A DNA stretch of 64,000 bases, taken from the NCBI GenBank assembly GCA_947627695.1, contig CANQXF010000012.1, positions 1 through 64,000 of the forward strand, written 5' to 3'. Within the stretch, counting starts at the first letter, position 1. Every line of letters begins with the position of its first letter. This DNA comes from an uncultured Ruminiclostridium sp. (GTDB lineage Bacteria > Bacillota > Clostridia > Oscillospirales > Ruminococcaceae). A program made the position numbers and the translations under genes. Shown here one piece after another: positions 1,656 to 26,774 of the stretch. A model generated the notes under the pieces. It was not told the DNA's origin. It searched no databases and saw only the letters and a program-made list of their open reading frames with translations.

Positions 1656-1666
1656 GTGGTAGTTAT

Positions 1667-2152
1667 ATGAATATCAATGAATCAATAAAAGAAAAGTATA
1701 AGCTGACAAAGACAGCTCAGAAGGAATGGAACTCTTTGCTCCATGTGACCAAACCGAAACCGAATGACAGGATATTGCTGTTTCCGAATTTAGACTGGGA
1801 GTGTAATTTGCAGGGAATGCGATATCTTGATACATATCTGCAAAGGGTAAACGCTGATAAAGCTATTATCATAACCATCGAAAACAATGTGAAACGGGAC
1901 ATTCAGCTTTATTCGGATAACGTACGGTCAATAATTGAAATTTCGGCAGATCAGGCAGAACGCCTGATCGCATTATATGAACTTCATATTTTTGATAACA
2001 GATTTGTTGTGGTTTCTCTTGATCGGCCGTTCAGCAGAAACGGTTCAAGTCTTGTGGGATATAAAGGGACGACCGTAGAGCAGTTAGTTGCTATTGGAAT
2101 TTACGGAATAATTCCTTTTCGCCAGCTTCCTCAGAATAAAAAAATCGTATAA
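1667..2152 (+). CDS. Unrecognised protein of glycan cluster
   Basis: A 161-aa soluble protein with no signal peptide or membrane segment. I do not recognise a family. It reads like alternating strand and helix: DRILLFPNLDWECN, then ADKAIIITIENN, then RFVVVSLDRPFSRNG, which resembles half of a Rossmann-type fold. It could be a small nucleotide- or sugar-binding protein, or a truncated glycosyltransferase. The start follows GGTGG 11 nt downstream of the GT8 stop, and the next gene starts 20 nt after its stop, so it is co-transcribed with glycan genes. Function unknown. Confidence 0.6.
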   Translation: MNINESIKEKYKLTKTAQKEWNSLLHVTKPKPNDRILLFPNLDWECNLQGMRYLDTYLQRVNADKAIIITIENNVKRDIQLYSDNVRSIIEISADQAERLIALYELHIFDNRFVVVSLDRPFSRNGSSLVGYKGTTVEQLVAIGIYGIIPFRQLPQNKKIV

Positions 2153-2172
2153 AACACAGGGAGAAAAATTAT

Positions 2173-3162: not shown

Positions 3163-3164
3163 AT

Positions 3165-5342: not shown

Positions 5343-5343
5343 A

Positions 5344-6849: not shown

Positions 6850-6893
6850 AATAAAAAATAAAATGATGATGTTATCATCTGAAAGGAAAAAAC

Positions 6894-7475
6894 ATGAATA
6901 CATATTTTGAAGAACTGTTAAAAATCCTGACTGACTCGTTGAAATCCATTGACCAGAATGCTTTTTCACAGCTTGTTGACGAGAGCATCGAAACCCTGAA
7001 TTCGGGACACAAGATTATTCTTTCGGGGCTTGGCAAAAACGTGCCTGTATGCGACAAGTTTGTAGGTACAATGAATTCGCTGGGACTTAACGCCTGCTTT
7101 ATGAACACCAATTCCGCCGTACACGGGGACATCGGAATGGTACAGGACGGCGACCTTGTCATTCTGCTCACAAAGAGTGGCGAAACGGTAGAATCAGTGT
7201 ATCTTAACTCGCTTCTTGACAAAAGAAACTGCACCCAGTGGCTGCTGACATTTGAAAATGAAAGCACGTTGACAAGGAAAATATCCAAATGCATTGTTAT
7301 CCACCTTGAGCATGAGGGGGATATGTGGAACATCGTTCCCAACAATTCCACCACCCTCAATCTCATCGTTTTGCAGATGCTGGCGATGCAGATAAGCAAG
7401 AAGATGGGCATCACTCTTGACCAGTTTAAAATGAATCACCCCGGCGGACATATCGGAGAGATATTAAATGGCTGA
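6894..7475 (+). CDS. SIS-domain sugar-phosphate isomerase (KpsF/GutQ-like, no CBS)
   Basis: A 193-aa single SIS domain. GHKIILSGLGKNVPV is the phosphate loop, HGDIGMVQDGD matches the arabinose-5-phosphate isomerase signature, LLTKSGETVES is the second sugar-phosphate loop, and HPGGHIG near the C-terminus is the family's closing motif. KpsF/GutQ proteins are usually ~320 aa with two CBS domains; these are absent here. The reaction is an aldose-ketose phosphate isomerisation, substrate unknown. SD GAAAGG lies 9 nt before ATG. The 3' end overlaps the next gene by 8 nt, so isomerase and phosphatase are translationally coupled. Confidence 0.8.
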   Translation: MNTYFEELLKILTDSLKSIDQNAFSQLVDESIETLNSGHKIILSGLGKNVPVCDKFVGTMNSLGLNACFMNTNSAVHGDIGMVQDGDLVILLTKSGETVESVYLNSLLDKRNCTQWLLTFENESTLTRKISKCIVIHLEHEGDMWNIVPNNSTTLNLIVLQMLAMQISKKMGITLDQFKMNHPGGHIGEILNG

Positions 7476-7845
7476 TGTGATCAAAGTTTCCTCTTTGGGA
7501 AAAACGTGGATAATGGATATTGACGGGACGATCGTCAAGCATAACGGATACAAGACAGACGGCAAAGATACGCTTCTTGAAGGTGCAAGGGAATTTTTCA
7601 AAAAGCTGTCCCCGGAGGATAAGGTAATTCTTATCACGTCAAGAAAAAGAGAATATAAGGAGATGACCGAGAGCTTTCTTGCCGAAAACGGTATCCGTTT
7701 CGATACGATAATTTACGATCTTCCTTACGGGGAGCGTATTCTGATAAATGACAGAAAGCCCTCAGGAATGATGACCTCTATCGCCGTCAATACCCGGAGA
7801 GATGAATTCACCGATACCGTTTTTGAAACGGACGATACGATATAA
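7468..7845 (+). CDS. Small capless HAD phosphatase
   Basis: A 125-aa haloacid dehalogenase-fold phosphatase with all core motifs: MDIDGTI (nucleophile and acid/base Asp, motif I), LITSRK (motif II), and LINDRKP (motif IV Asp). No cap domain fits in this length, as in C0-type enzymes such as KdsC and GmhB that act on large sugar phosphates. The start is inside the last codons of the SIS gene. With the upstream kinase-nucleotidyltransferase and isomerase it forms a full isomerise-phosphorylate-dephosphorylate-activate set. The link to the same sugar is inferred from coupling, not proven. Confidence 0.8.
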   Translation: MADVIKVSSLGKTWIMDIDGTIVKHNGYKTDGKDTLLEGAREFFKKLSPEDKVILITSRKREYKEMTESFLAENGIRFDTIIYDLPYGERILINDRKPSGMMTSIAVNTRRDEFTDTVFETDDTI

Positions 7846-7856
7846 GGAGGACCAAA

Positions 7857-10037
7857 ATGCTTTTAGATAAAATATCAGCCATAGGAAGGACCTGTACAGG
7901 CTGTTCATTGTGTAAGAATATCTGCCCCGTGGGAGCGATCGAAATGCTCCCTAACGAGGACGGATTTATAAGACCGAAAATCGACAGCGAAAAATGTATT
8001 CACTGCGAAAAATGCGAAAAGAAATGCCCCCAGCTTGATCACGCTGTTTCCAACGAGGCAGAGCCGCCCTGCTACGCTGTAAAAATGTCGCCTGACGTAT
8101 TAGAGGTAAGCTCATCGGGCGGAGCGTTCACCGCCCTTGCAAACTATGTTTTCGATAAAGGCGGATATGTGTGCGGAGCCGCTTACGACGAGGATTTCAG
8201 GGGAGTATCCCAGATAATGATTTCCGACAAAGCGGATATGTATAAGCTGAGGGGCTCAAAATACGTTTACAGCAAGCCCGGAAATATCTACAAGCAGGTG
8301 CATGAAAAGTTGAATGAAGGAGCGTACGTCCTCTTTTCGGGAGCCCCCTGTCAGGTGGCGGCGCTTAAAGCGTATCTTCCCAAGGATTTTAAAAAGCTGA
8401 TAACAGTTGACCTGCTTTGCGGCGGCTATCCTCCCGAAAAGCTTTTCCGTCAGTATGTGGACAGTGTTGCAAACGGCAGGGAAATAAAAAACATTTCTTT
8501 CCGCTCCAAAAAATACAGCTGGTACATAAACGGAATAAGGATTGAATTTACAAACGGAGAGGAACATATTATTCACTCAATGCGTGACCCTTACCTTAAA
8601 GCATATTTAAAATTTATGATAACATCAGAATCCTGCGACAACTGCCAATTTGCTCCCACTCCGAGAGTTGGCGACTTTACGATAGGCGATTTCTGGAGCT
8701 TTGACAAATATGACGAAACGGTAGATCTGGAAAAAGGCATAAGCTGCATACTTACAAACAACAAAAAATCAATGGAAATTTTTGAGGAGATAAAGGGCTC
8801 GTTTGAATTTGTAAAAAGAATGCCCCTGTCCTTCCTCAGACGGTTTAACAGAATGAATGAAAAACGCAAACCTGTCCTCGCCAGACAAAGATTTTTCCGT
8901 CTGATAAAGGATGGCTGGGACTTTAAAAAAGCGGTGGATTACGCCCTTAACTGGAAATTTGACGTAGCTGTAAGCGGCTGCTGGACTGTACCCAATTATG
9001 GCGGCGATCTGACGTATTATGCTTTGTACAACACTATCAAGGATATGGGATATTCTGTGATTATGGTAGAGAGACGGGCAGATATTCCGGGATATGACAT
9101 TCCCGTTCCGCGTCATTTTGCTGTAAATCCTTACCCGTTTTATGATGTTTGCAGAATACATAAAAATTTCAATGACCAAGCGGAGTTGAATGTTCGGGTA
9201 AAAACGTTTGTTTTAGGCTCGGATCAGGTTTGGAACTTTAAACTGATGAGTCCCAATGCGATAAAGAGTTGGTCTTTTGATTATGTCAAGGAATTCAGAC
9301 GGAAAATATCGTATGCAAGTTCCTTTGGTTCATCAGAGTTTACAGGAACGGAAAAGGAAAAGGAAGAATTCGGAGCATTATTAAGAAGGTTTAACGCGGT
9401 TTCCGTCAGAGAAAAAGCGGGAATAGACATTTGCGACCAATTGGGTGTAAAAGCCGTTCAGGTCATTGACCCCGTTTTTTTGTGCCAAAAGGAGCATTAT
9501 AAAAAGCTGATAGACTCCGCAAAGTGTTCTGTGGGCGGAGATTATATCTGCACATATTTTATTCACCCGAATTCAACGAAATACGGTATGGAAAAGATAT
9601 GCGAGGAGCTGAACTTAGGGCATATCAACACTATCAACGCAGACGAGGATATGCTTTCAAAAGATAGATTTAATAAAGCTAAGTGGCCGTACACGCTTGA
9701 AGATAACCTGACAGTTGAAAGCTGGCTAAAATATCTTACCAACAGCAACCTTATTATCACTGATTCATTTCACGCTACCTCGCTTGCAATAATTTACAAT
9801 ATACCTTTTGTTTTTATAAAAGGCTCCCTTAATGTATTAGTTGGAATGGACAGATTGGGAACACTTTTAGGAATAGCCGGACTGGAAAACAGAGTCGTAA
9901 CCACCGTTGAAGAAGCCTTTGAAAAAAAGACCTACAACCAGCCTATCGACTGGGAGCAGGTAAACGCCAGAATGAAGCCCGAGATAGAAAGAAGCAGACA
10001 GTGGCTTGAAAATGCTTTGAAAGCGGAGATTATATGA
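7857..10037 (+). CDS. Ferredoxin/FrhB-polysaccharide pyruvyl transferase fusion (copy 2)
   Basis: A 726-aa protein with the same architecture as 3165-5342: a ferredoxin-like head with Cys 13, 16, 19, 23 (CTGCSLCKNICPVG) and a second cluster CIHCEKCEKKCPQ, the FrhB-like block (SGAPCQVAALKAYLP, CDNCQFAPTPRVGD), then a pyruvyl transferase domain from about residue 364 (NYGGDLTYYALY, LGSDQVWN, TDSFHATSLAI). The two copies are clearly diverged, so they probably act on different residues rather than being a recent duplication. SD is AAGGAGG, 7 nt before ATG. A broken piece of a further copy's C-terminus is found near 11650. Confidence 0.85.
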   Translation: MLLDKISAIGRTCTGCSLCKNICPVGAIEMLPNEDGFIRPKIDSEKCIHCEKCEKKCPQLDHAVSNEAEPPCYAVKMSPDVLEVSSSGGAFTALANYVFDKGGYVCGAAYDEDFRGVSQIMISDKADMYKLRGSKYVYSKPGNIYKQVHEKLNEGAYVLFSGAPCQVAALKAYLPKDFKKLITVDLLCGGYPPEKLFRQYVDSVANGREIKNISFRSKKYSWYINGIRIEFTNGEEHIIHSMRDPYLKAYLKFMITSESCDNCQFAPTPRVGDFTIGDFWSFDKYDETVDLEKGISCILTNNKKSMEIFEEIKGSFEFVKRMPLSFLRRFNRMNEKRKPVLARQRFFRLIKDGWDFKKAVDYALNWKFDVAVSGCWTVPNYGGDLTYYALYNTIKDMGYSVIMVERRADIPGYDIPVPRHFAVNPYPFYDVCRIHKNFNDQAELNVRVKTFVLGSDQVWNFKLMSPNAIKSWSFDYVKEFRRKISYASSFGSSEFTGTEKEKEEFGALLRRFNAVSVREKAGIDICDQLGVKAVQVIDPVFLCQKEHYKKLIDSAKCSVGGDYICTYFIHPNSTKYGMEKICEELNLGHINTINADEDMLSKDRFNKAKWPYTLEDNLTVESWLKYLTNSNLIITDSFHATSLAIIYNIPFVFIKGSLNVLVGMDRLGTLLGIAGLENRVVTTVEEAFEKKTYNQPIDWEQVNARMKPEIERSRQWLENALKAEII

Positions 10038-10056
10038 AAAAGAGGTAACAGAAAGT

Positions 10057-11587
10057 ATGCTTACAATTAAAACCCCCTTTATAGATGAAAAGGACGGAAT
10101 ATCAACGCTGATAACTGATGTTGATGTAAACGGAGATGTTAGACGGATAACCGCAAGTGTGGAAAATGAGTATGCACCGTATCTTTGCTGTGAACGCTCA
10201 GACGCTGTGGTGATAGGCTTGTTATCCTATGCTCTTCGTCATAAGCATGATATCGTCTGCGAAGCTCCTGTGACTGATGAGTTGCTGTATAATATAAACG
10301 AAGTTCTGCTTCCCGCTTTGCTGACAAATGATAGCGAAAATTATAATGTACATATAACCTGCGACACCGCACCGTGTATTCAAAAATCGTTGCGGGGGGG
10401 TAGGAACTGGATTATCCTGCGGAGTAGACAGTTTTCATGCGGTCGCTAAGCACTACAACTCGCCGTATAAGAACAACGCCCTTACTCATCTTGCCGTATA
10501 TAATGCAGGCTCGTTCAACGCAGTATACAAAAACAGCGGGCTGGATTTTGTACAGAAAAAGGTGTTTGAAAGAGCAAAAACAGTGGCAGCAGAGCTTGGC
10601 TTGCCTTTGATTACTGTTAATACAAACATACATAAGATGTTTCCTCAGAATCATTATCTCACCCATACGTACACGGATATGTTTGCGGTCTATTCTTTGC
10701 AGAAACTTTGGAAAACCTATTATTATTCAAGCACTTACGATTACGGCGGATTTGAACTTGACGGAAATTTGAATATTGACCCTGCGCATTTTGAGATATT
10801 ACTGCTCAACTGCTTTTCTACCTCACAATTAAGGCTTTACTCGGACGGTGCGTCAAAGATAAGAGATGATAAAGTAGCGTTTATTGCCGATTTTGAGCCG
10901 GCCCGCAAATATCTTCACGTCTGCACCGCTAAAGAGGTAAACTGCGGGCACTGCGAAAAATGTATGAGAACGCTGTTGGAGATGGATGCGACAGGAACAT
11001 TGGAAAAATTTAGTGAATCTTTTGACATAGAAGGCTACAAAAAGAACAGGTCTATGTATTACCGTAATTTATGCAAGCAAAAGATATTGGGAAATGCTTA
11101 TTTGCAAAGAACGTTTGATGTGTTATACAAGACCAACAGGGAAGAGTTTGATAAGTACCTGTCCGAATTTACAACAGAAAATCTGATAAGAAGGCTTGAC
11201 GATCAGGGAAGATTAACTGACAGGTGGAGAAAATACACCGCTATTTTTGAAAAAGCTTTGGACAGGGCAAAACTGAAAGAAAATATACAACAACGATTTG
11301 CTGAAAAGAACGTGAAAACAGTAGCGTTTTACGGCGACGGGGAACTTAGAAGGTTTTTGTACGGGATAATAAAGGAGATAGACGGCGTTGAGGTAAAATA
11401 TATAGTAGAGGACGGCAAGCTGGACTGGCTACCTTTTCCAAGCTATGCGAGAACATCCAGCGAGCTTCCCGATATAAATCTAATGATAATAACCGACGTG
11501 CTGGCGTTTCCCGCTATACAAAGAATGATGAAAAGGGATCATTCTTTTGATGTGGTAAGTGGCGAAGAGCTGATAACGGGAGAGTAA
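10057..11587 (+). pseudogene. PP-loop (N-type ATP-pyrophosphatase) protein split at a G7 tract
   Basis: Two frames, 10057-10449 and an overlapping frame running on to 11587, together make one ~509-aa protein if one G is removed from the run 10394-10400. The restored junction reads SLRGVGTGLSCGVDSFHAV, a PP-loop ATP-binding signature (SCGVDS in place of SGGxDS) in the fold of asparagine-synthase and QueC-type enzymes. Further on are CGHCEKCMRTLL (probable Zn knuckle) and VAFYGDGELRR (Rossmann-like nucleotide loop). Family role here is unknown; adenylation of a carboxyl or sugar in glycan modification is plausible. Last gene of the cluster. A phase-variable gene, a true pseudogene, or a sequencing error are all possible; everything after the break is intact, which favours one of the first and last. 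Confidence 0.75.
10394..10400 (+). repeat. G7 homopolymer at the frameshift
   Basis: Seven consecutive G inside the PP-loop gene. Six G would restore one continuous frame. Poly-G tracts of this length are typical slippage sites in surface-glycan genes of other bacteria. Confidence 0.85.
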
Positions 11588-11641
11588 AAATAAGAAACAA
11601 CCTTATACTTTTTCTATCGTCGCTGAAAGCTTGAACGGAAA

Positions 11642-11690
11642 GGAATAGGCAGTAGCTTGAAAATGCACTGAAGGCGGAGAAAAGTTTCTC
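11642..11690 (+). pseudogene. Fragment of a third FrhB-pyruvyl transferase C-terminus
   Basis: The plus strand reads RQ-stop-LENALKAE, matching the end of copy 2 (SRQWLENALKAEII) with the Trp codon changed to TAG. Nucleotide agreement with 10004-10050 is close over about 34 bases. No other part of the gene is visible. It is best explained as the scar of a recombination or deletion that removed an additional fusion gene downstream of the cluster. The 11588-12068 interval holds this fragment, a short open piece ending LFLPPEPFDMASLTKGTD near 11770 that I cannot assign, and a terminator. Confidence 0.55.
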
Positions 11691-11931
11691 ATTGGCTCTG
11701 GAAAATATAAAGGCAAAGCATTGTTCCTCCCGCCTGAACCTTTTGACATGGCGAGCCTGACAAAAGGCACAGATTAAGTCTCATTTTTATTTGAACAGGC
11801 ATAACAGTTTTTATAAAGAAATATTAAAGTTTAATTTATCGTATTACAGAAATATTTATTGTTAGAAAATTTTAATAAAGTTTCTATAATTGCGATAAAA
11901 CTCTATTCAACATATTTAAACAACGATATGC

Positions 11932-11970
11932 AAATACCGATAGTCTTCAACATAAGACTGTCGGTATTTT
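11932..11970 (+). terminator. Intrinsic terminator after the glycan cluster
   Basis: A 16-bp stem (11932-11947 with 11954-11969, loop CAACAT) with an A-rich 5' side and a T-rich 3' side; almost fully paired with one G-T/A mismatch region. It could work for either strand. Confidence 0.75.
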
Positions 11971-12068
11971 CTGTTGTAAAAAACAGAATAAGTCAATTAT
12001 ATAATTCCCGTGCGCCGCCCTTCAATCGTTTTGACGAAAAACTGAAAAAATGATTGGAGGAAATAAAA

Positions 12069-14726: not shown

Positions 14727-16293
14727 ATGAAACGTGTAAATACGCTGTATCGAGTATCTACCAAAAAACAGGTCGATGTCACAAAGGACGATATACCGAT
14801 GCAGAAAATTGCCTGCCACGAATTTGCAGAACGGCAGGGCTGGACAATTACAAAAGAGTATTCGGAAAAAGGAATATCAGGATTTAAGGTATCAGCCGAA
14901 GATCGTGATGCCATACAGGATTTAAAACAAGCAGCACTGAACAAAGAGTTCGACGTGCTGCTTGTTTTTATGTTCGACAGAATCGGAAGAATAGACGATG
15001 AAACGCCCTTTGTGGTGGAATGGTTCGTACATCACGGAATAGAGGTATGGAGCGTAAAAGAGGGAGAGCAACGGTTTGACAGCCATGTGGACAAACTCAC
15101 AAACTATATTCGCTTCTGGCAGGCTTCGGGAGAAAGCGCAAAGACATCAGCAAGAATAAAGACCCGAATGCAGCAAATGGTTGAGGAAGGTAATTATATA
15201 GGGGGCTCCGCACCCTACGGATACCGCCTTGTAAAAAGGGGACGATTAAACAAAAAGGGAAACGAGGTGTACGACCTTGAAATTGACCCCGCCGAATCCG
15301 AAATCGTAAAGATGATCTTTGAAAGCACGGTAAAGTACGGACACGGTTCCTTTCAACTTGCAGATCGGCTGAATAAAATGGGACTCAGGACTCATAGCGG
15401 AGCAAAGTTCCAGTGCAACTCCATTATACGAATGCTGAAAAACAGAATATACTGCGGATATATCCAAACCAAAAATGCTTGTTCACCGTTTATTGAAAGG
15501 ATTCAAATTATTGATGAGGATATATTCGATATGGCACAGGAAATTTTACAACAGAGGGAAAAGAAGAATAACGGCAAGCGCACGGTGGCACTGAAAACAA
15601 AGGGGGAGTCGCTTCTGTCGGGTAACATATTCTGCGGACACTGCGGCGGCAGAATGGTATCTACTACCTATCATGAGGAATATGTAAAAGCGGACGGTAC
15701 AAAAAGCATATACCACACAAAGAAATATATCTGCTACCACCGTTCAAGAAAACTGAACGAATGCGACGGACAAGCGGCGTACAGATCAGATATTGTGGAA
15801 GAAAAGGTACTTAGTGCGATAAAGAGCCTGTTTGATAAGATAAAGACAACTCCCGAACAGGAAATATTGGAGCATAAATTCAAAAACCAAGCCGAGGACT
15901 GCAAAATAAAAAAAGCGGCAGTTTGAACAGCAACTGGAAAAGCAGACCAAGCAGCTTGAAACCTTGCAGGCGGAAATAGGAAACAGCCTGATAGGGAACA
16001 GCGTTTATTCCCCTGATGACCTTGCAGCTGCCATAAAGATTGCCAAGAAGACTGTGGAAGAAACCAAAGCCAAACTTGATGATGTGACAAATAAACTTGA
16101 AGAAGCGAAAAGCGGAGCAGACAACGTGCCGATCCTATATCAAAGGTTCCTCGGCTGGGCAAATAAGTTCGATACAGCTTCCAATGAGCAGAAAAAGATG
16201 ATAATCTGCAGTCTGTGCGATAGGATAGAGATCAGTCGTGATTATGAGGTTAGGATCGTGGTGGATATGGATTATGGGCAGTTTTGCGGGTGA
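14727..16293 (+). pseudogene. Large serine recombinase, frameshifted at A7
   Basis: A ~522-aa TnpX/integrase-type serine recombinase if one A is removed from the run 15908-15914. The N-terminal resolvase domain begins LYRVSTKKQ with catalytic Ser 11, then GRIDDETPFVVEW. The recombinase domain contains GGSAPYGYRLVKRG, and the zinc ribbon has CGHCGG with CYHRSR. In the present frame it stops at 15926 after KIKKAAV. The other frame continues as RQFEQQLEKQTKQLETLQ (coiled coil) to 16293 with DRIEISRDYEVRI. Such enzymes excise and insert mobile elements. Without the coiled coil the enzyme would be defective, unless the A7 tract slips or is a read error. SD GAAAGGAG before ATG. Confidence 0.85.
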
Positions 16294-16482: not shown

Positions 16483-16553
16483 TCCCTGCCGTACGGTAGA
16501 GCGCTTGACTGTTAATCAAGATGTCACTGGTTCAAGTCCAGTAGGGGGAGCCA
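16483..16553 (+). pseudogene. Broken tRNA-Asn (GTT), D-arm damaged
   Basis: The anticodon arm (TTGACTGTTAATCAA), variable loop, T-arm (ACTGGTTCAAGTCCAGT), acceptor 3' strand AGGGGGA, discriminator G and CCA are all normal for tRNA-Asn. The 5' side reads TCCCTGCCGTACGGTAGAGC. The 5' half of the D-stem is missing and the acceptor 5' strand pairs at only about five positions, including one wobble. Probably an integration scar (only the 3' tRNA half retained), not a working tRNA. It is followed by a terminator. Confidence 0.7.
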
Positions 16554-16560
16554 AACGCCC

Positions 16561-16600
16561 AAATCCGAGCATTTATCCAAAAGAAAATGCTCGGATTTTT
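16561..16600 (+). terminator. Terminator after tRNA-Asn remnant 1
   Basis: AAATCCGAGCATTT pairs with AAATGCTCGGATTT, followed by T run. The same hairpin follows remnant 2. Confidence 0.85.
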
Positions 16601-16618
16601 ATTTTTCCAAAATAAATT

Positions 16619-16703
16619 AAGCGGATAGAAAAATCTATCCGCTTTTTTTATTTTCCACCAAAAATTTTATCTATCCTCCGACCAATAAGGTCGGATTATT
16701 TTT
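16619..16703 (+). terminator. Two further terminator-like hairpins
   Basis: AAGCGGATAGA (16619-16629) pairs with TCTATCCGCTT (16634-16644) with a T7 tail. TCCGACC (16677-16683) pairs with GGTCGGA (16689-16695) before TTATTTTTT. Three stacked terminators in 150 bp suggest repeated insertion at this site. Confidence 0.65.
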
Positions 16704-16942
16704 TAGAAAGGAAAAATTGCAATGATTCTCTTAGCTAAAGCTATCTTTCAGGATCAGTATGTTATGGCTTTCCGTTACATCGGATCTGTGAAAGCAAACT
16801 ACTGTATTGCTCCACAGCATATTCCCAGAGCATATTTCCGCCTGTTGGCGGCGGCAGTAACCAATATGCCGTAAAATATTGGAACGCAATATTATTAGGA
16901 GGGAGTGATAAAGCGTATGAAATTTTATGATGATATTCACAA

Positions 16943-17788: not shown

Positions 17789-17814
17789 AGCTGATGCAAG
17801 ACTTTCCTATATAA

Positions 17815-17873
17815 TCCCTGCCACCCCCTAGAGCGCTTGACTGTTAATCAAGATAGTCCAGTAGGGGGAGCCA
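17815..17873 (+). pseudogene. Broken tRNA-Asn (GTT), T-arm deleted
   Basis: Same gene fragment as 16483-16553, with the identical anticodon arm and 3' end TAGGGGGAGCCA. Here about 13 nt of the variable region and T-arm are missing (AAGATAGTCCAG), and the 5' part reads TCCCTGCCACCCCCTAGAGC. It cannot fold as a tRNA. The downstream ~100 bp also match copy 1, so the two are a direct repeat 1,332 bp apart. Confidence 0.75.
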
Positions 17874-17880
17874 AACGCCC

Positions 17881-17913
17881 AAATCCGAGCATTTATCAAA
17901 TGCTCGGATTTTT
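17881..17913 (+). terminator. Terminator after tRNA-Asn remnant 2
   Basis: Same stem as 16561-16600 with a shorter loop: CCGAGCATTT pairs with AAATGCTCGG, then T5. Confidence 0.85.
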
Positions 17914-18006
17914 ATTTTTCCAAAATAAACTAAGCGGATAGAAAAAGCGCCTCCTATGAAAAAATAAAAGAGTAATTATATGGCGGTAAAAAATGAATAA
18001 ATAAGT

Positions 18007-18039
18007 AAAAACGGAACAGTTTGATACTGTTCCGTTTTT
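18007..18039 (-). terminator. Terminator downstream of XRE gene (bidirectional)
   Basis: AAAAACGGAACAGT pairs with ACTGTTCCGTTTTT, loop TTGAT. Fully symmetric, with A run and T run, so it ends the minus-strand XRE transcript and blocks entry from the left. Confidence 0.85.
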
Positions 18040-18052
18040 CATATTCTGACGG

Positions 18053-18286
18053 TCATTTTACGTTATCGGGATAAGGCTCTCGACAGTCGGTAATGCCAAG
18101 CAGATAATCTGTGCTTGTATGGTAAAATTCAGAAAGAAAAATCAGCTTTTGTAAGGGAAGCTCGGTTGTGTGCAGCTCATAACGTGAGTAAGTTTGCTGA
18201 GAGCAGCCAATGTTTTTTGCCATTTCTTCCTGAGTTCTCTTGGACTCCTCGCGCAGCTCACGCAAGCGCAGCTTCAGTTCCTTCAC
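18053..18286 (-). CDS. XRE-family helix-turn-helix repressor
   Basis: A 77-aa Cro/CI-type DNA-binding protein, almost only an HTH domain: RLRELREESKRTQEEMAKNI, then GCSQQTYSRYE, then LPLQKLIFLSEFYHTSTDYLLG. The GTG at 18286 is chosen because GAGGTGAT lies 5-6 nt upstream; a longer opening to 18349 runs through an operator-like sequence and has no ribosome site. It is divergent from the recombinase at 18610. Two copies of TACTCAATAAYTGA lie in its upstream region and are the likely binding sites, so it should repress itself. In this orientation the outward promoter of the invertible segment also points at this gene. Confidence 0.85.
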   Translation of the reverse strand: MKELKLRLRELREESKRTQEEMAKNIGCSQQTYSRYELHTTELPLQKLIFLSEFYHTSTDYLLGITDCREPYPDNVK

Positions 18287-18312
18287 TCTGATCACCTCAA
18301 AATGGTATATTG

Positions 18313-18326
18313 TACTCAATAACTGA
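18313..18326. promoter_or_regulatory. XRE operator half-copy
   Basis: TACTCAATAACTGA, matching the first 14 bases of the dyad at 18386-18402 with one change. It lies 27 bp before the XRE start codon. Confidence 0.6.
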
Positions 18327-18385
18327 ACGCCAAGCCGTCCAACGGGCAATTTACGTTTTCATCTGCGAATATTTCTGTTGCGGCG

Positions 18386-18414
18386 TACTCAATAATTGAG
18401 TAAAATATAGTATA
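18386..18414 (-). promoter_or_regulatory. XRE operator dyad with extended -10 promoter
   Basis: TACTCAATAATTGAGTA (18386-18402) is a near-perfect palindrome. On the minus strand it sits directly downstream of TGCTATACT (18409-18417), an extended -10 element. A bound repressor would cover the transcription start, giving autorepression. Confidence 0.65.
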
Positions 18415-18433: not shown

Positions 18434-18464
18434 ATTTCGCAAAAGAGGAAATTTTGAGAAGAGC
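18434..18464 (+). repeat. Left 31-bp inverted repeat of the invertible element
   Basis: Begins ATTTCGCAAAAGAGG and ends TTTTGAGAAGAGC. It is the exact reverse complement of 19731-19761, all 31 positions. Comparison stops at 18433 and 18465, where the arms no longer match. Confidence 0.95.
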
Positions 18465-18502
18465 TATAAAAACTCCTCAAAACATAGATACCCTTTTATA
18501 CA

Positions 18503-18531
18503 ATCATAACACTCTGTTTTCGTCTTGTCAA
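18503..18531 (-). promoter_or_regulatory. Outward promoter inside the invertible segment
   Basis: Minus strand: TTGACA (18531-18526), 17-nt spacer, TATGAT (18508-18503). One base from the sigma-A consensus. It fires leftward over the left repeat toward the XRE gene in this assembly. Confidence 0.85.
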
Positions 18532-18609
18532 GAGAAATTTCTAAAAAAATGAGAATTGGAAGTAAACTTTCTTGTTGAAAGTTGTGCAAAATATACAAGG
18601 AGGATTATT

Positions 18610-19692
18610 ATGTCGAGATCAAATGCTTATCATCGTAAAGACGGTCGCTGGGAGGGAAGGATCCCGCAGGGAAAAAATGATGATGGTAAGCGAAAATTCC
18701 GGTATATATTCGCCCGTTCAAAAGAGGAAGTGCTGCAAAAGATGGAGGAGATATACCTGCGTGAACGTTCCGCCGCAAGCTGCTGCAAAACGCTGCATAC
18801 CGTTTTTTCGGAATGGTTTAATTTGACAAAACATCGTATCAAGGAGTCCACAGCCGCAAACTATGCCATGAAAGCGGACAAGCATATTCTCCCCGTTTTC
18901 GGAGCAAAGTCTATCAGCAGTATTACGCAGGACGACGTCTGCGCTTTCATTGCCGACAAGCAGAAATCAGGCTTTTCTGAACGATATATTGCCGATATTG
19001 TTGTTCTTATGAAGAGCATTTTCAAATATGCCGCTGTTTCTTACCATATTTTTAACCCGCTGGACAGTCTGCGGCTGCCAAAGAAAAAAGGCGTGGAGAT
19101 CATGCTTCTTGACAAAGAGGAGCAGGAACGGCTGCAAGCATATATTTCCAACCATTGGGATCACGGTACGCTCGGCACAGCTCTTTCCGTTTCAACAGGT
19201 ATCCGTATCGGGGAGCTTTGTGCCCTGCAGTGGAAGGATATTGACCTTGAAAAACGGATTTTGACCGTCAGAAAAACTATGCAGCGTATCCAGACACCCT
19301 CGTATACAGCAAAGACAAAACTCATCATAACCGACCCGAAAAGTGAATCTTCACGCAGAAAGATTCCGATTCCCGACTGTATGATGAGTTTTTTGATGAA
19401 ATTCAAAGGGAACTCCGACGATTATGTGCTAACCGGATCAAGTAAACCTATTGAGCCGAGAACGATGCAGTATCGTTTCAGAAAGATCCTGAAAAACGCA
19501 AATTTGCCGTCAGTTCATTTTCATGCTTTGCGGCATATTTTCGCCACGAATTGTATAAGGCTCGGCTTTGATGTCAAATCCTTGAGTGAACTTTTGGGGC
19601 ACAGCTCAGTTGAAATCACGCTGAATCGCTACGTTCATTCATCTTTTGAGCAGAAACAGGCGTATATGAAACAAATTGCCTTTCATTTTTAA
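18610..19692 (+). CDS. Tyrosine recombinase (site-specific invertase)
   Basis: A 360-aa phage-integrase family protein. The N-terminus has an arm-binding-like segment (SNAYHRKDGRWEGRIPQG), then a SAM-like core-binding domain (TLHTVFSEWFNL to about residue 170), then the catalytic domain with all active residues: TGIRIGE (Arg), HALRH (His and Arg), LGHSSVE (His) and NRYVH (nucleophilic Tyr). ATG 18610 follows AAGGAGGA by 6 nt. A 7-bp hairpin (18565-18583) lies in its leader. It lies wholly between the inverted repeats, so it is the obvious enzyme for flipping them. It is clearly related to the eroded copy at 1-624 (shared PIEPRTMQYR). Confidence 0.9.
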   Translation: MSRSNAYHRKDGRWEGRIPQGKNDDGKRKFRYIFARSKEEVLQKMEEIYLRERSAASCCKTLHTVFSEWFNLTKHRIKESTAANYAMKADKHILPVFGAKSISSITQDDVCAFIADKQKSGFSERYIADIVVLMKSIFKYAAVSYHIFNPLDSLRLPKKKGVEIMLLDKEEQERLQAYISNHWDHGTLGTALSVSTGIRIGELCALQWKDIDLEKRILTVRKTMQRIQTPSYTAKTKLIITDPKSESSRRKIPIPDCMMSFLMKFKGNSDDYVLTGSSKPIEPRTMQYRFRKILKNANLPSVHFHALRHIFATNCIRLGFDVKSLSELLGHSSVEITLNRYVHSSFEQKQAYMKQIAFHF

Positions 19693-19730
19693 AAAGTTGA
19701 TAGCATGAAAAATGAATAAATGCTGTACAG

Positions 19731-19761
19731 GCTCTTCTCAAAATTTCCTCTTTTGCGAAAT
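19731..19761 (-). repeat. Right 31-bp inverted repeat of the invertible element
   Basis: Begins GCTCTTCTCAAAA and ends TTTTGCGAAAT. Exact reverse complement of 18434-18464. It ends 134 bp before the adhesin start codon. Confidence 0.95.
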
Positions 19762-19895: not shown

Positions 19896-22800
19896 ATGAA
19901 AGAAACTACGAAGAGATTTATCGCAGGAGTATCAGCGGCGGCACTGTTTGTGTCTGCGGTCGGCTCTGATGTGTTTACAAATTGGTTCACCGTGTTTGCT
20001 GATTCTTCAACCGGTAAAAACGGCAGATCAACGGGATTTTCCAATCTTGAACAGGATACAGATGGTGAATACTATAATACCGGCTACGGTCTGCACACGA
20101 ACAAGACTGCCACGGCGCTGGACGACGGCAGAACGTTTGACGTGAATTTAGAGTCCTGGTACGTTGGTGAGAACCCCGTGGACGTTGCAACGATTCTTGA
20201 CGCTTCGGGTTCAATGGCATGGACGGTGAACACGCTTGAGCCGCTGGTGGTCAACTCTGATGAGAAAGATATAGCCTCTTATCTCGGTGTTGATGACAGT
20301 AATGAAGCAGATTTAAATAAAGACGGTAAAGCAGATATTAACGACCTGATAACGTATCAAGACGAAAACGGCGGCTATCTCCCACAGGACGTTGTTGACA
20401 AGATCTTAGACAATACCAAGACCGACAACACCAAACTGGGCTATGACAAATACATGTATTACGTCTACGAAGCACGCTCGTCCGTTTCTGAGTTTGTTCC
20501 CCTGGGGTATTGGGACGGCGGTGCTGATCCGAAAACCGATCCTTCTCTTATCGGTTACTATCCGTTCAGCGGCACATTGGAGAATAAAGCGCCGAATGCG
20601 GAGAAAGGCGCTACTGGTATGCTGATAAATCACCCGACAGGTGTAGAAGCTTATGATACAGAAAAATCGGCACGACAGGAGCCGGAGGCAGTATTTTCTA
20701 CTGAAACTTATGTAAAGAAAAAAGGTGAAGACCCTGTAACCGAAGAAAAAGGGCTTGACATAATGAAAACAGCACCTATCGGCGGTGTTTTATTAGATAG
20801 TCCAACAACTGATAAATTTACTATAAAAATGAAGTTCAGTATTGGACATCTTGTTGATTCATCGAATCAAAGTCAATATGGAGATACAACCTTTTTGTAT
20901 ATTACAGACGGAGAAAACTCTTATAAGTTTTATCGCCGTGAAGCTGGTTCAAAAAACCGCATGGGAATTTATGACAACACTGGAAAAAGTCGAATTTTAA
21001 ATGCCAACAATGTTTTCAACGATAGCGACGATCATGAATGGACGTTTGAATTTGATTTTTCAACTAACACGTTGAAGTTAACTACTAATGATGATGATGT
21101 TAAAATGGATGGCAGTAATATAAGCAAAGAATACACTATTAATCTGTCAACAAAATTAAACACCAGTAATCTAAAGGTAATTCTCGGTTATACAGATAAA
21201 CCTGAAGAAATAGAGAAATTTTCAGACGTATACGTCAAAAGCGTTGAAATTAGCGACAATAAAGGTAGTGTTGCTAAATATGAATTTTCAACTACAACCA
21301 AATCCTTGCAGAATAGCGTGAATAATAAAAACGCAACTTTTGTTCAGCAAGGTGATCACACAAAGAAAATTGAAGCAGTTTATCTTGATCCTGTAATCAT
21401 AGATAATAAATACTTAGATGTAAAAGCAACCTCTCAACTTGGCGCGGTAAGCCTTGACGTTGTGCCTAATCTTGACGACGGCTTTACAATTTCAATGAAA
21501 CTGCAAAGAACAGCAAGCCTTGACAAAAATGCAAACAATCAACAAAATATCTTCTATTTTGGTGATAAAGACAAAAGTAAGGATTATTACCAATATTTCC
21601 GTTCCGCCAATGCCGGTGGTTATTTAGGTATTTCTAAGAGTGAGCAAAAGGATTTGGACAAAACTCCTACTGGGACTGATATGGTTTACTATCAAGGCGG
21701 TATGGCTAATAATAATTGGTACACAAATACCCTTGTATTTGAAACAGACCCCGAAGATGATCGTAAATATATTGTCACACCTTACATAAACGGTAAAGCG
21801 GAATATCAATCAGGTAGTGAAAAAAATTTTAAGATAGATAAAATATCCGTAGATAAAGACAGTCTTGTTTTCCTGCTTGGCGCTTTAGAAAGCAACGGCA
21901 GCGGCTCAGACCAATACCTCGACGACCTCTACGTCTTCAACGATGCCTTAGATGCCAAAACCGTTGAGTTGTATTTCAGCGATGAAGCTGTTTCCTGCGA
22001 TGTTGACGGCGCAACCCATGCACAATCTTTTGTAAAGGACGCCGACGGCAATATCGTCAAAAATGAAGATGGCAGTCCGAAAGTAATAGAGATAGCCCAA
22101 ATAAGCAACGACGACAAACGCCTTGGCAAAAATACGAATGTTGCCCAGCGCAGAGGCTGGTACTACGTAAACTCTGCTTCCGCTTGGGCGGATATAACAG
22201 GTTGCCTTGCAAGCGGCAAGCAGTATATTGGTATTTTTACCGATGACGGACTTGAAAAAGATTTCTCCGATATGGCAAAAGACACAGCCACAGTACCTTC
22301 CGGATTTGCAGAAAGCACAGATGAAAAACAAAAGAATATAGCAAATGAAATTACAAACAGCAATACCAATGAAGAAAAATACACAGCGCCAGATAAGGAG
22401 CGCAGTATACGCTTCTATGTTGACAAACAGAATCATTTGCGCTGCTTTGTATGGAGTGGAGCTACTACTAAAAATAAAGGTGATGAAAGAACGTTCTGCT
22501 CGGTAGTATACGAAAAGAAAGCTGACCAGAAAACCAAATACGAGGAGCTTAACAGTGCGCTGAATACGTTCTACAAAAATCTTGCAGATTACTCCGACCT
22601 TTCAAACACCTCGGTCGTTCGTTTCAGCACGAATAATGCGGTGGATAAAGATGAAGAAGCAAATACAAATACAAATTTGCAAAAACTCCTCATGAGAGAC
22701 TGGACGAACTGGTCGGACTATTATCAGGAAGTGAAAGCTGAGGACTTGTCGGCTACGCCGAGTACCAATAATTATTTGCAGGATCTTCTGGATTCTGGTG

Positions 22801-25800
22801 ATAAAAAATCTACTGATATCACAGAATCCAAAAATAAAACGGAGCAATACCCCTACGTCATGACGGGCGGCACGTATACCTGGACGGGTCTTAAAGCGTT
22901 TTATGACAATATGATAAAGAATACGGAAAACCAAACGGTTAAAAACGTAGCCAATGACGCCCGTGACAAGTATCTTATCATATTCACAGACGGCCGTGAC
23001 AATACGCAGGATTATAATGTTTCAGATGTTGTGTCCACGGCGAATAACACTAATCTGGCAGGCTCTCCGGATTATGATACCGGCAGTACCTTTAGGGGAA
23101 CTAATTATGTAAATATTTACAATCCTTATAAAGACGACCCGGATCATTTAGTTGGTTTCAGCATTGTAAATTATGATGATTATAAGGGCGAAATAAACGA
23201 TAGTTTTTATTCTGAGTATCAAGTACAAGAATTTAAAACAGGGGTCCATAAAATAGAACACGACGGCGACCTTGCGCAGGCTTGGGCTGATAAGCTCAAA
23301 GAAGAGGGCTACACTATCTATTGCGTAATGTTGGCGACAGGTTCCATTTCTCCTACAGCTAATGCCGATGAATATAATAAAGCTAAAAATTTCCTGAAAT
23401 CTCTTTCCGGAGGTAAAGACGCTGATGAAGAAATAGCTGAAATGCAAGCGGATATGGATAGCTGGTCATCAGGTACTAAGCCTGATGAATACGCTGATGT
23501 TCAAAGAGAAATTGAGAAACTGAAAGATAATTACGTTATCATTGTTGACCCGACCACAACGACCGGCACCAGCAGTCTTGAATCTGCATTTGCGCAGATC
23601 CTCGAGGATATCCAACAGCCCCGTGAGGACTACACCGTTCAGGACTATATCGACCCGCGTTTTGACCTGATAGGAGGAAATTCTTATTATTTTAACGGCA
23701 ACAGCAAATCTGATAAGGTCATTTACCATCTCGGCGCAGGCGGTAAAATAACGTTTACCGATGAAAATAATAATCCGCTTACGGATATAGCTTTAACATA
23801 TAAGGGCGAAGCTTTTACAAGTGGTACAAAAGTCGGCAACATAATTGACGATGAAAAAGCCATAGGTATTCCCTACGTTCCGCAGGAAAGCTGCAATATA
23901 AACGGTAAAGGCTATATCTATTACGACGATGAAAAAGATATGTACTATCTGCGCTGGACGGATCAGATCATTCCGATGGAAAATGAATCGTTTGATACAG
24001 CAACAAGCAAACCTACAAAATATCTCGACGTCTGGAGCGCAACCATTCGCCTGAAAGCAAAAGACGATTTCATCGGCGGCAACAACATTCTCACCAACGG
24101 AAACGAAGCGGGCGAAAACCTCGTTTACAGCGATGCGACTATTGAGAATATGGATAAGAACCCCGAATTGTATTTCGCGGATTATAAGGCAGGAGATACG
24201 ATTACGTACCGCCAAAAGCTCGAAGCCCTCTCCGGCACGAACAGAAAGATCAATGCGGTTGATGCGGACGGCGTTTCGCAAGCGGTTTACGGTGATGGGA
24301 TAGACATTCCGTCCTCAGGATTTCCAAGGGTAACTGTAAACGTCAGATTGAAGCCCCTTGATGCAAAAAATCTGAATGACGTGATCTATATGGGCGAAGT
24401 CGTGTCACCGACTATGATGCTTGCCGACCTTGAAAACGACTATATGACAGGCTCATACTATCTGGAGTATCTGGAACGGTATGCATACCGTCTTTACGGC
24501 AAAGATACGGATAAAACGCCTCTCCTCGACTTACTGAATGAATGGCTGAAGATCAATAATAAAGAAGAAACGGCAAAAACTTTCACCATACCGTATATGT
24601 ATTTGCCCGACCCGATTTACGAAAATGATAAACTGAAAATTGACGAATATACAAAAAGAGTCATAGTAAGCAACAGCACCGGAGCGTCCTGGAAAGAGGA
24701 CGGTGACACCGACTTTACAGACCTCAACCTCCGCGACGTTACCGGCTTTATCACTTATACCTGGAAGCGTAATGATGGAGGCGAAAAACAGCAGGAAAAC
24801 AAAGAAGGCAAGCCCGACATCACCAAAGAATACATTGTCAAGAACACAAATCAGATCAAGTACAATCTGCAATTGAAGTTTACTCCGCTGCATGAGGGAG
24901 AGTTGAAAGGTTTTGATCTTGACGATGAAAAATTCATAACGTCAGTAACGGGCACTGAAGACATCTTCTTTGAAGTTGATGCAGATAATGAATTTGCTGA
25001 GAGCACTGACAAAAAATGGGAATTTACCAAACGTTCTGACTATCTGCAAGCCATGGTAAAGGAAGAAAAAACCTACACGCCGCACGTTGAGTACAATGAA
25101 AGTACCAAAAAGTGGCAATTATCGACTGAAACTACTGAGAAAACCAATGAAGACACATACGACTGGGATACTTCGTACAAGCCGGTTGTAGGCAACGCGC
25201 AGATAGAGGGTGATAAGCTGGATGAATATTACACAGACACGTTAAATAATGTCGGCTTCACTGACAAAGACGGCAATACTATCACCGATAAAACAGGCGT
25301 ATTCATAACAGGTAAAAGTGATACAGATGTATGCTCACTCGTAGCCAACACTACCTACATCAAAGACGTTGTCAATGGTGCGCTTGCGCTGGAACTTGTA
25401 GTGGACGGAAAGTATCTGAAAAAAGGTTCACAAATCAATCCCACAGGTGAAACTAAAACATTTACCTTTGAAGCCACACGTTACTATGACGACCCAATCG
25501 ACCCGTTACCCTATGGTGACAAAACTTCAATTAATGCAGACACAGTATTGGGCGGTAAAAAATATCAGCTGACATTTAAAGTTGATAGTAAAACCCTGCC
25601 GGATGATCCGAATGAGAATCAACTCTATCCAGTCTGGGCGACATTGACTAAGGTTGAGGTAGAGAGCGCTACGGGTGATTATGAAACTATAACTACAGCG
25701 GACGGCTACACTGTTGAAAATGCTCTCCCAATCGGTACATATGTGATTTCGGTAAATAATTCTGAAATGGAGGGTCCTACCTCTCAATACTATATCGGAA

Positions 25801-26774
25801 AAAATGATAGCGGTGCAGATGTAAACTTCATCTACCTGAAAACCGACAACGCACCTGCGAGCTATTCCTACGACAAATTCCCCGACAGCGTTTACAAAGT
25901 CAGCGAAACTGCTACTACAAGCACAGGCGACGGCGAATATCTAATCAAGAACGGCGAAAATGACAATTCTCCGAAGAATATCGCTGACAGCAACAGGACA
26001 AAGACTACTGAAAAGCAAACGTTGACATTTTATTTCGGTACTGTGGACAGCAAAGAAATCAACGGAGAGACACTGCAAAACACAAAAGGCTATAGCAGAT
26101 TTGACGAAGAGGATAAAGACTACGCCAAAGACCGTCTTGGAATTATACTGCTGTCCGTTGACCCGAACAGCCTTGCAATTTCAAAAGTTGTGACGAATAC
26201 TGACAAGACGGAGGATTTTGGACATTTGTGGGAATTTACCGTTACTTTTGCGCCGAATGCTGATGAGGAAAACTTGAAAGAATTTACAGATAAAAATGAA
26301 ACAGGTTTTGCTTTGACATGGTATGCACTTGACGAAGACGGCAGCTGGAATTTAGATACAATTGGAAGTCACGAAAAAACAACCAAATTCGGAGGACCGG
26401 ACAGTGACGGCAAATATACTGCAACAATCCAACTGAAACACGGCGAAAAAGTCATTATCAGCGGTCTGCAAGAGGGCAAATGGCAAGTAACCGAAACAGA
26501 CGAAAGAGAAACTATCTTCTATTCCGCCCACAACAACATGGACAAATTTGATGATTATGTATTTTCCAACAAAACAAACGAAGATATCGTATTAAATCCC
26601 GCGTCTCACGTTGATTTCGTCAACGAATTTCCATACGAGCTCCCCTCCACAGGAAGCATTGGAATAAACCGATATATCTTCTTCGGCACAATGTTTGCAA
26701 TTGCTTCTACCTTGTTCGTTGCAATGCTATGGTACGATCGGAGAAAGCGCAGGACGACGAATGAACAGCCGTAA
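19896..26774 (+). CDS. Giant LPSTG-anchored VWA/LamG surface adhesin
   Basis: A 2,292-aa exported wall protein. A signal peptide (FIAGVSAAALFVSAVGS) precedes FADSS. A von Willebrand A domain starts with the metal-site motif ILDASGSM near residue 100 and resumes only at SVVRFSTN (~908) and IIFTDGRDN (~1030). Between lie a calcium-loop-like DLNKDGKADIND (~139) and two concanavalin/LamG-like domains (~215-450 and ~510-690). The C-terminal half has pilin-type beta domains and ends with LPSTG (~2248), a membrane helix and RRKRR. ATG 19896 is preferred over GTG 19887 by spacing to GAGGG. It resembles a pilus-tip adhesin and overlaps its sortase gene by 14 nt. Expression probably depends on the invertible promoter. 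Confidence 0.85.
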   Translation: MKETTKRFIAGVSAAALFVSAVGSDVFTNWFTVFADSSTGKNGRSTGFSNLEQDTDGEYYNTGYGLHTNKTATALDDGRTFDVNLESWYVGENPVDVATILDASGSMAWTVNTLEPLVVNSDEKDIASYLGVDDSNEADLNKDGKADINDLITYQDENGGYLPQDVVDKILDNTKTDNTKLGYDKYMYYVYEARSSVSEFVPLGYWDGGADPKTDPSLIGYYPFSGTLENKAPNAEKGATGMLINHPTGVEAYDTEKSARQEPEAVFSTETYVKKKGEDPVTEEKGLDIMKTAPIGGVLLDSPTTDKFTIKMKFSIGHLVDSSNQSQYGDTTFLYITDGENSYKFYRREAGSKNRMGIYDNTGKSRILNANNVFNDSDDHEWTFEFDFSTNTLKLTTNDDDVKMDGSNISKEYTINLSTKLNTSNLKVILGYTDKPEEIEKFSDVYVKSVEISDNKGSVAKYEFSTTTKSLQNSVNNKNATFVQQGDHTKKIEAVYLDPVIIDNKYLDVKATSQLGAVSLDVVPNLDDGFTISMKLQRTASLDKNANNQQNIFYFGDKDKSKDYYQYFRSANAGGYLGISKSEQKDLDKTPTGTDMVYYQGGMANNNWYTNTLVFETDPEDDRKYIVTPYINGKAEYQSGSEKNFKIDKISVDKDSLVFLLGALESNGSGSDQYLDDLYVFNDALDAKTVELYFSDEAVSCDVDGATHAQSFVKDADGNIVKNEDGSPKVIEIAQISNDDKRLGKNTNVAQRRGWYYVNSASAWADITGCLASGKQYIGIFTDDGLEKDFSDMAKDTATVPSGFAESTDEKQKNIANEITNSNTNEEKYTAPDKERSIRFYVDKQNHLRCFVWSGATTKNKGDERTFCSVVYEKKADQKTKYEELNSALNTFYKNLADYSDLSNTSVVRFSTNNAVDKDEEANTNTNLQKLLMRDWTNWSDYYQEVKAEDLSATPSTNNYLQDLLDSGDKKSTDITESKNKTEQYPYVMTGGTYTWTGLKAFYDNMIKNTENQTVKNVANDARDKYLIIFTDGRDNTQDYNVSDVVSTANNTNLAGSPDYDTGSTFRGTNYVNIYNPYKDDPDHLVGFSIVNYDDYKGEINDSFYSEYQVQEFKTGVHKIEHDGDLAQAWADKLKEEGYTIYCVMLATGSISPTANADEYNKAKNFLKSLSGGKDADEEIAEMQADMDSWSSGTKPDEYADVQREIEKLKDNYVIIVDPTTTTGTSSLESAFAQILEDIQQPREDYTVQDYIDPRFDLIGGNSYYFNGNSKSDKVIYHLGAGGKITFTDENNNPLTDIALTYKGEAFTSGTKVGNIIDDEKAIGIPYVPQESCNINGKGYIYYDDEKDMYYLRWTDQIIPMENESFDTATSKPTKYLDVWSATIRLKAKDDFIGGNNILTNGNEAGENLVYSDATIENMDKNPELYFADYKAGDTITYRQKLEALSGTNRKINAVDADGVSQAVYGDGIDIPSSGFPRVTVNVRLKPLDAKNLNDVIYMGEVVSPTMMLADLENDYMTGSYYLEYLERYAYRLYGKDTDKTPLLDLLNEWLKINNKEETAKTFTIPYMYLPDPIYENDKLKIDEYTKRVIVSNSTGASWKEDGDTDFTDLNLRDVTGFITYTWKRNDGGEKQQENKEGKPDITKEYIVKNTNQIKYNLQLKFTPLHEGELKGFDLDDEKFITSVTGTEDIFFEVDADNEFAESTDKKWEFTKRSDYLQAMVKEEKTYTPHVEYNESTKKWQLSTETTEKTNEDTYDWDTSYKPVVGNAQIEGDKLDEYYTDTLNNVGFTDKDGNTITDKTGVFITGKSDTDVCSLVANTTYIKDVVNGALALELVVDGKYLKKGSQINPTGETKTFTFEATRYYDDPIDPLPYGDKTSINADTVLGGKKYQLTFKVDSKTLPDDPNENQLYPVWATLTKVEVESATGDYETITTADGYTVENALPIGTYVISVNNSEMEGPTSQYYIGKNDSGADVNFIYLKTDNAPASYSYDKFPDSVYKVSETATTSTGDGEYLIKNGENDNSPKNIADSNRTKTTEKQTLTFYFGTVDSKEINGETLQNTKGYSRFDEEDKDYAKDRLGIILLSVDPNSLAISKVVTNTDKTEDFGHLWEFTVTFAPNADEENLKEFTDKNETGFALTWYALDEDGSWNLDTIGSHEKTTKFGGPDSDGKYTATIQLKHGEKVIISGLQEGKWQVTETDERETIFYSAHNNMDKFDDYVFSNKTNEDIVLNPASHVDFVNEFPYELPSTGSIGINRYIFFGTMFAIASTLFVAMLWYDRRKRRTTNEQP

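Follow-up and report, generated by a model that had tools for sequence, protein, structure and literature searches.

Positions 18434-19761 of the window (the whole 64,000-nucleotide stretch analysed here, which belongs to contig C12 of a 2.70-Mb draft genome in 67 contigs) are best explained as a self-contained cassette that likely inverts itself, and that is predicted to switch a giant predicted adhesin and its sortase on and off; we place the probability of this reading at roughly 0.8. In the assembled state the predicted promoter faces an XRE gene and the adhesin is for that reason predicted to be off; after inversion the same promoter would face the adhesin. The recombinase gene reads away from the promoter and has its own Shine-Dalgarno sequence within the segment, so that the enzyme may be expressed in both states. 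The XRE protein is likely a self-regulator acting at a palindrome between the repeat and its own gene, where it would damp read-through from the promoter.

The segment measures 1,328 bp and, as in invertons, is bounded by short inverted repeats: a left arm of 31 nt at 18434-18464 (plus strand) and a right arm at 19731-19761 (minus strand), with 100% complementarity and 1266 nt enclosed. From base composition, a perfect 31-bp inverted repeat with arms within 3 kb is expected ∼5e-11 times per 64 kb. Each arm contains a 27-bp core site, TTTCGCAAAA-gaggaaa-TTTTGAGAAG at 18435-18461 and its minus-strand counterpart at 19734-19760; with up to three mismatches allowed, this core is found at just two places in the draft genome, namely the two arms. 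The copy of the element in genome G028 is 95% identical to that of the window. A search of viral contigs with the window's exact repeat, two positions being left open, returned no match.

Enclosed by the repeats is a gene for a tyrosine recombinase of 360 aa (18610-19692, plus strand), the predicted inverting enzyme of the segment. Its reading frame starts at ATG 18610 behind an AAGGAGG sequence, ends with the stop at 19692 and has an additional in-frame TTG at 18556; the Shine-Dalgarno sequence is kept in an alignment of the orthologues at loci L080, L099, L100 and L101. The protein matches PF00589 (2.7e-28) and PF14659 (3.1e-12), and six residues that we take to be the catalytic set (R217, K262, H323, R326, H349 and Y359 in 378-aa numbering) are invariant in 32 of 32 aligned sequences, the window's included; the predicted nucleophile is Y341 in 360-aa numbering. 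It is similar to the integrases of conjugative transposons and phages. The best solved-structure match of the family is PDB 6en0 and its kin (4.9e-30), an ‘Int protein’ presumably from Tn1549, and in a structural model an N-terminal beta domain precedes the helical and catalytic parts.

The cassette is a member of a large family found in Clostridia. A search of 71 genomes of the genus gave 42 matches at E 1e-60 including the window's own, and 40 of the 41 others were taken; further loci comprised the best 80 of at least 576 relatives on genome contigs and all 32 relatives on viral contigs. Among these 153 loci 152 had a recombinase match, 143 remained once nine duplicates had been removed, and 119 had at least 300 bp on the left and at least 250 bp on the right. 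Of 105 loci at or above 35% identity, 84 have inverted repeats (score of at least 16) around the recombinase, as do one of two at 33-35% and none of 12 below 33%, while control searches gave 6/400 for flanks of different loci (some of them related) and 0/400 for shuffled sequence. The other 21 of the 105 yielded no repeat at the score-16 threshold, six of them scoring 13-15. Segment length ranges from 1,187 to 1,695 bp with a median of 1,390 (83 elements, the repeat not extended into the flanks). A quick tree with 116 rows was rooted on a distant one; its smallest clade that includes all repeat-bearing rows holds 106, of which 85 have repeats (SH-like support 99), and 17 changes are needed to explain the repeat label, the shuffled mean being 27.4: on this tree the cassettes are clustered in one recombinase clade, but patchily. 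Thirteen loci obtained later were inspected singly and left out of the family counts. The recombinase family as a whole is large: of 7,999 candidates scored, 1,710 proteins (90% clusters) reach E ≤1e-80. Among the 120 relatives listed, two source names were seen, the annotation being ‘site-specific integrase’ only.

The predicted outward promoter, a sigma-A-type TTGACA-17-TATGAT with a TG before the -10, lies at 18503-18531 on the minus strand and matches at 11 of 12 positions. Situated upstream of the recombinase, it points left (18531 to 18503) toward the XRE gene and away from the adhesin; as a motif, then, the segment has what invertons have, a predicted promoter near one end that points outward. 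Nine promoter-like matches of at least 9/12 fall between 17700 and 20200, against a shuffled mean of 5.3, which makes the motif alone weak evidence; conservation is stronger evidence. A second 11/12 match (19577-19550) is located within the recombinase gene. The -35 and -10 elements are conserved in the alignment of L080, L099, L100 and L101, and across the family an outward promoter of at least 10/12 is found within 150 bp of the segment's 5′ end in 74 of 84 elements (shuffled mean 5.2), at 11/12 in 57 (shuffled 1.2) and at 12/12 in 21 (shuffled 0). At the 3′ end the outward matches number two at 10/12 (shuffled mean 4.0) and none at 11/12 (0.4) or 12/12. The excess at one end and its absence from the other thus place the family promoter on the 5′ side of the recombinase gene and directed away from it. 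The preliminary description had reported perfect 31-bp inverted repeats around an intact tyrosine recombinase and an outward promoter, and the fully complementary arms and the promoter match bear this out.

The likeness of the protein to conjugative-transposon and phage integrases would also suit an ordinary integrase gene that had come by its repeats and promoter by chance. Against this stand the expectation for such a repeat and the family-wide counts of repeats and promoters, by which a chance repeat or generic integrase is rejected; we give this account practically no credence.

For the recombinase itself no convincing promoter was found: inward matches of at least 10/12 at the 5′ end occur in 12 of the 84 elements (shuffled mean 6.0), and at 11/12 in two (shuffled 0). 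For this reason expression of the recombinase could depend on orientation after all. The further claim, that transcription of the recombinase also changes direction on inversion, is true for the direction of the gene.

Taken as two 10-bp arms around a 7-bp spacer, 64 of 83 core sites are palindromic at 13/20 or better (shuffled fraction 0.11); the free best spacer length was split mainly among 5 (30 sites), 7 (23) and 3 (17), and 7 was chosen from the alignment rather than as a unique optimum. When the two copies within each of these 64 sites are compared, 162 of 1280 arm positions differ as against 1 of 448 spacer positions, a near-zero figure partly favoured by the repeat finder, which requires a contiguous matching block; 53 elements have an arm mismatch and one has a spacer mismatch. 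When the left copy alone defines the centre (67 elements), the seven spacer positions have 2, 0, 0, 0, 0, 1 and 1 mismatches, as against 2-10 at each position of the outer arm, 2-24 at each of the inner arm and 36-50 at each position just outside. Tyrosine recombinases demand an identical overlap for strand exchange. We infer that in each core site the 10-bp arms would serve as binding sites of the recombinase, with strand exchange taking place over the 7-bp spacer; agreement of the spacer between copies would be what such exchange demands.

Comparison of loci reveals the segment in both orientations. At the XRE-adhesin locus both neighbours are swapped relative to the segment when the window and L080 are set against L100/L240: the window's left flank is 80.4% identical over 317 bp to the right flank of L240, the match beginning 75 and 138 bp away from the respective repeats, and there is a 73.5% match over 499 bp between the window's right flank and the left flank of L240, beginning at distances of 8 and 7 bp. 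Between the window and L100 the XRE proteins are 89% identical and the adhesins 63% over 190 aa, at which point the L100 gene is cut by the contig end. A close relative, L099, has an adhesin-like gene on the promoter side. In L229 and L235, from two species of one genus and with segments 89.7% identical, a shared flank (91.8% identity along 2,996 bp) begins 1-4 bp outside the repeat but lies on opposite sides; the other flank of L235, 135 bp only, gave no match, and this comparison rests on one side. Within G028, L082 and L089 match over 965 bp (93.3%), again on opposite sides. The window's own genome has a paralogue on contig C9 (L081) with a paralogous adhesin on the promoter-side flank and a weak promoter (<10/12); in L068, the G028 counterpart of L081, the recombinase appears frameshifted. 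Within the window's genus, the XRE-type locus was found in two copies (G000 and G028), which share one orientation.

Overall, 65 of the flank pairs compared have the same orientation and 30 the opposite, with non-independent pairs and duplicate loci in both numbers. Among the 80 elements with 350 bp on both sides, 49 have a gene of at least 100 aa that reads away within 300 bp on their 3′ side alone, 12 have one on the promoter side alone, eight have one on each side and 11 have none; the window's XRE gene (98 aa as called from TTG) is under the 100-aa limit, and the window is therefore among the 49. As these counts show, both states occur, and the promoter in the assemblies usually faces away from the neighbouring gene. 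Both orientations are thus found, as in invertons, among species and among paralogues. An invertible promoter had been proposed from the start, with a lack of inverted reads and a single orientation across relatives named as the observations that would count against it; the L100/L240 locus is inverted, contrary to the second of these and in support of the proposal, although the nearest relative, G028, has the window's orientation. Differences in orientation between species could reflect rare events.

Such differences might instead have arisen from separate insertions, if the element were a once-active switch or a small tyrosine-recombinase transposon, now fixed, with the repeats as its termini. 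Related cassettes are indeed scattered among unlike neighbours, the G000 and G028 copies share one orientation, and one cassette is nearly identical in records of three genera: at L151, L153 and L154 (Butyricicoccus, Blautia and Agathobaculum) cassette and surroundings agree at 99.9-100% over 10-16.6 kb, which reflects recent transfer or contamination. Yet L229 and L235 have their matching flank on opposite sides of the segment, beginning almost at the repeat, and the XRE locus retains its two neighbours in exchanged positions: both are as in-place inversion predicts. Moreover, the core sites are complete and stand in inverted rather than direct order, and the flanking genes vary around a promoter that is conserved inside the 5′ end. 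We therefore regard a fixed element as improbable, and prefer a cassette that inverts in place.

The gene that inversion would bring under the promoter encodes a giant LPSTG cell-wall protein of 2292 aa, a predicted adhesin (19896-26774, plus strand), whose ATG is 135 bp from the repeat. Its LPSTG sorting motif is at 26640-26654 (plus strand), and a class C sortase (NF033745; 26761-27657, plus strand) follows with a 14-bp overlap between the genes. Pfam returned no match to the whole adhesin at E 0.001, and on pieces of it DUF7601, near the C terminus, was alone above its cut-off. A DxSxS motif of vWA type is present: as DASGS it is invariant across six aligned adhesin sequences and presumably fits the metal site of a vWA domain. 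Comparison with solved structures gave no relative at E 0.01. The N terminus is signal-like by eye and, together with the LPSTG motif and the class C sortase, is the reason for predicting a cell-wall or pilus adhesin. The adhesin (60% aa identity) and the sortase (65%) both have orthologues at L228, a locus of another genus with the window's orientation. At L101 there is a giant adhesin gene on each side of the cassette (1543-7782 and 9234-11971), where the switch would choose between two adhesins. Mirror-image similarity at L101 extends beyond the repeats (score 172) into both adhesin coding starts.

On the promoter side of the segment lies the gene for an XRE/HTH_3 regulator (77 aa, GTG start; 18053-18286, minus strand), which has an HTH_3 match and reads away from the segment; behind it the sequence contains an intrinsic-terminator-like hairpin (18007-18039, minus strand). 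This arrangement, with the LPSTG adhesin and the sortase on the other side, is as the preliminary description had it. For the XRE gene itself a weak promoter-like site, TTGGCG-18-TATACC, lies at 18304-18333 (minus strand), and its spacer contains a degenerate operator; the site was read from the sequence and the L100 alignment, having been missed by the promoter scan. Between gene and repeat is the palindrome TACTCAATAATTGAGTA (18386-18402), the likely (predicted) XRE operator, which has a single place in the genome at up to one mismatch. An operator match near the adhesin start (9/15, by eye) was judged no better than chance and dropped.

Close XRE homologues adjoin the cassette in the window, L080, L100, L103 and L232, starting ∼90-150 bp from the repeat, on the promoter side everywhere except in L100, where the gene is on the other side. 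A TACTCA-N5-TGAGTA palindrome separates repeat and XRE in the window, L080, L103 and L232, and is degenerate in L100/L240. This recurrent layout, with its operator-like palindrome, would be in keeping with a true two-way toggle: XRE as the functional opposite in one orientation, the adhesin in the other, the regulator perhaps acting also on the recombinase or the adhesin side. L101, with an adhesin on either side, is a clear two-way layout. However, L228 combines the orthologous adhesin and sortase with no XRE homologue at E 1e-3 within 19.9 kb, no second operator-like site is apparent in the genome at up to one mismatch (by which a role for XRE as a multi-target regulator is rejected), the XRE gene has its own promoter-like site, and the 49 elements of 80 with an outward-reading gene on the 3′ side only have none such near the promoter. 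A toggle of this kind is, in our judgement, unlikely, though less so than a fixed element. With its own promoter-like site and operator-like palindrome, XRE is probably not simply switched off by inversion. The single operator-like site and the lack of an XRE homologue in the 19.9 kb of L228 lead us to see XRE as likely a local, self-regulated and optional accessory, not the second arm of an obligatory toggle. The claim that the segment chooses between repressor and adhesin is therefore upheld in part: no homologue of the repressor was found in the 19.9 kb of L228, and in the window the repressor gene has a promoter-like site and palindrome of its own.

Further to the left, the switch is neighboured by a sequence that probably marks one end of an integrated element. 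Positions 16494-16720 (227 bp) are identical to G000:C24:31021-31247, a locus with an intact tRNA-Asn; ARAGORN found no tRNA in the window's copy, which holds the 3′ part only. An 83% copy of the same sequence is found at 17803-17946, and a large serine recombinase (14727-15926) adjoins the tRNA-Asn-derived copy.

Across the family the neighbours of the cassette vary, and include adhesins, LytTR regulators, polysaccharide genes and a second recombinase. The last of these, a shorter tyrosine recombinase of 304-345 aa as called, adjoins the cassette at L082, L086-L089, L095, L096 and L098, the L089 copy matching both PF00589 and PF14659; such pairs suggest a recombinase cascade. In the left flanks of L085, L090, L092 and L073 a small conserved gene (MKTCCFTGHRI or close) reads toward the cassette and ends 3-27 bp from the repeat. 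Five contigs of a viral collection (L179-L183) contain recombinase relatives at 53-66%, with repeats: some cassettes may ride on phages, or these contigs may be host DNA.

Together these analyses make it fairly probable, if less so than the reading of the window's own segment, that a large dedicated family of autonomous, self-flipping promoter cassettes is spread through gut Clostridia. Each would be a unit of 1.2-1.7 kb in which a domesticated integrase of conjugative-transposon type is combined with dedicated 10-7-10 core sites and a near-consensus promoter directed away from the integrase gene. Placed before adhesins, LytTR regulators, polysaccharide operons, sigma factors or a second recombinase, such units would render each gene independently phase-variable with no need of a genome-wide invertase. 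Provided that the cassette functions as its structure indicates, this one recognisable unit would point to phase-variable genes in many gut Clostridia. A defined 27-bp site, one enzyme and one promoter also lend the mechanism to direct tests in a laboratory host, and the natural loci, which occur in both orientations, are ready-made ON and OFF alleles.

The cassette shares features with several known systems. The integrase of Tn1549 is the best solved-structure match to its enzyme, and the cassette, like elements of the Tn916/Tn1549 type, has an integrase-type tyrosine recombinase with catalytic residues. The Tn1549 integrase moves its element between direct att sites; in contrast, the cassette's sites are not direct repeats bounding a transferable element but are inverted and close, 1.3 kb apart, an arrangement predicted to give inversion. 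In fim-type switches the recombinase gene stands beside the segment, whereas here it is inside.

Most recombinases are encoded next to the switch that they serve and a few within it, as is Hin (PMC5903667). The inside position had been called unusual in the preliminary description; this holds against most switches, but Hin in Salmonella and the fimbrial switch of Providencia stuartii are precedents (PMC5903667). Hin acts at two 26-bp hix sites around an invertible segment of ∼1 kb whose inversion turns a promoter (PMC3798978), and in these accounts of Salmonella flagellar phase variation the H segment, like the cassette, has the recombinase gene inside the promoter-turning segment (PMC5903667, PMC3798978). 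Hin, however, is a serine recombinase with a Fis-bound enhancer, whereas the cassette has a PF00589 tyrosine recombinase and sites best described as 10-7-10. In the Hin system, furthermore, the repressor is co-transcribed with flagellin, whereas the XRE gene is on the other side from the adhesin.

Providencia stuartii belongs to another phylum than the cassette's host. Its fimbrial invertible segment (844 bp, 14-bp imperfect repeats) also encloses the recombinase gene and adjoins a surface-structure locus, but is shorter than the cassette and a single case, presented in the section on it without family or promoter analysis (PMC5903667). The RecV switches of Clostridioides difficile (flg, cwpV) likewise combine a tyrosine recombinase, a host among the Clostridia and invertible control of surface genes (PMC5903667). 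RecV is one trans-acting enzyme for several switches, whereas the cassettes each carry their own. In gut Clostridia, group 139 comprises 33 invertons, of which 32 are from Clostridia, and tyrosine-type invertases of group 35 intersect them or lie within 5 kb; as in the cassette an inverton is linked to a tyrosine-type recombinase, and the portion of that report drawn on here does not state that the gene is inside the segment (PMC11892184). Among the open-access papers searched, no title or abstract opening described the cassette family. While a recombinase inside its own segment is in itself known, the scale, the uniform design and the use of a tyrosine enzyme of integrase type appear to be new.
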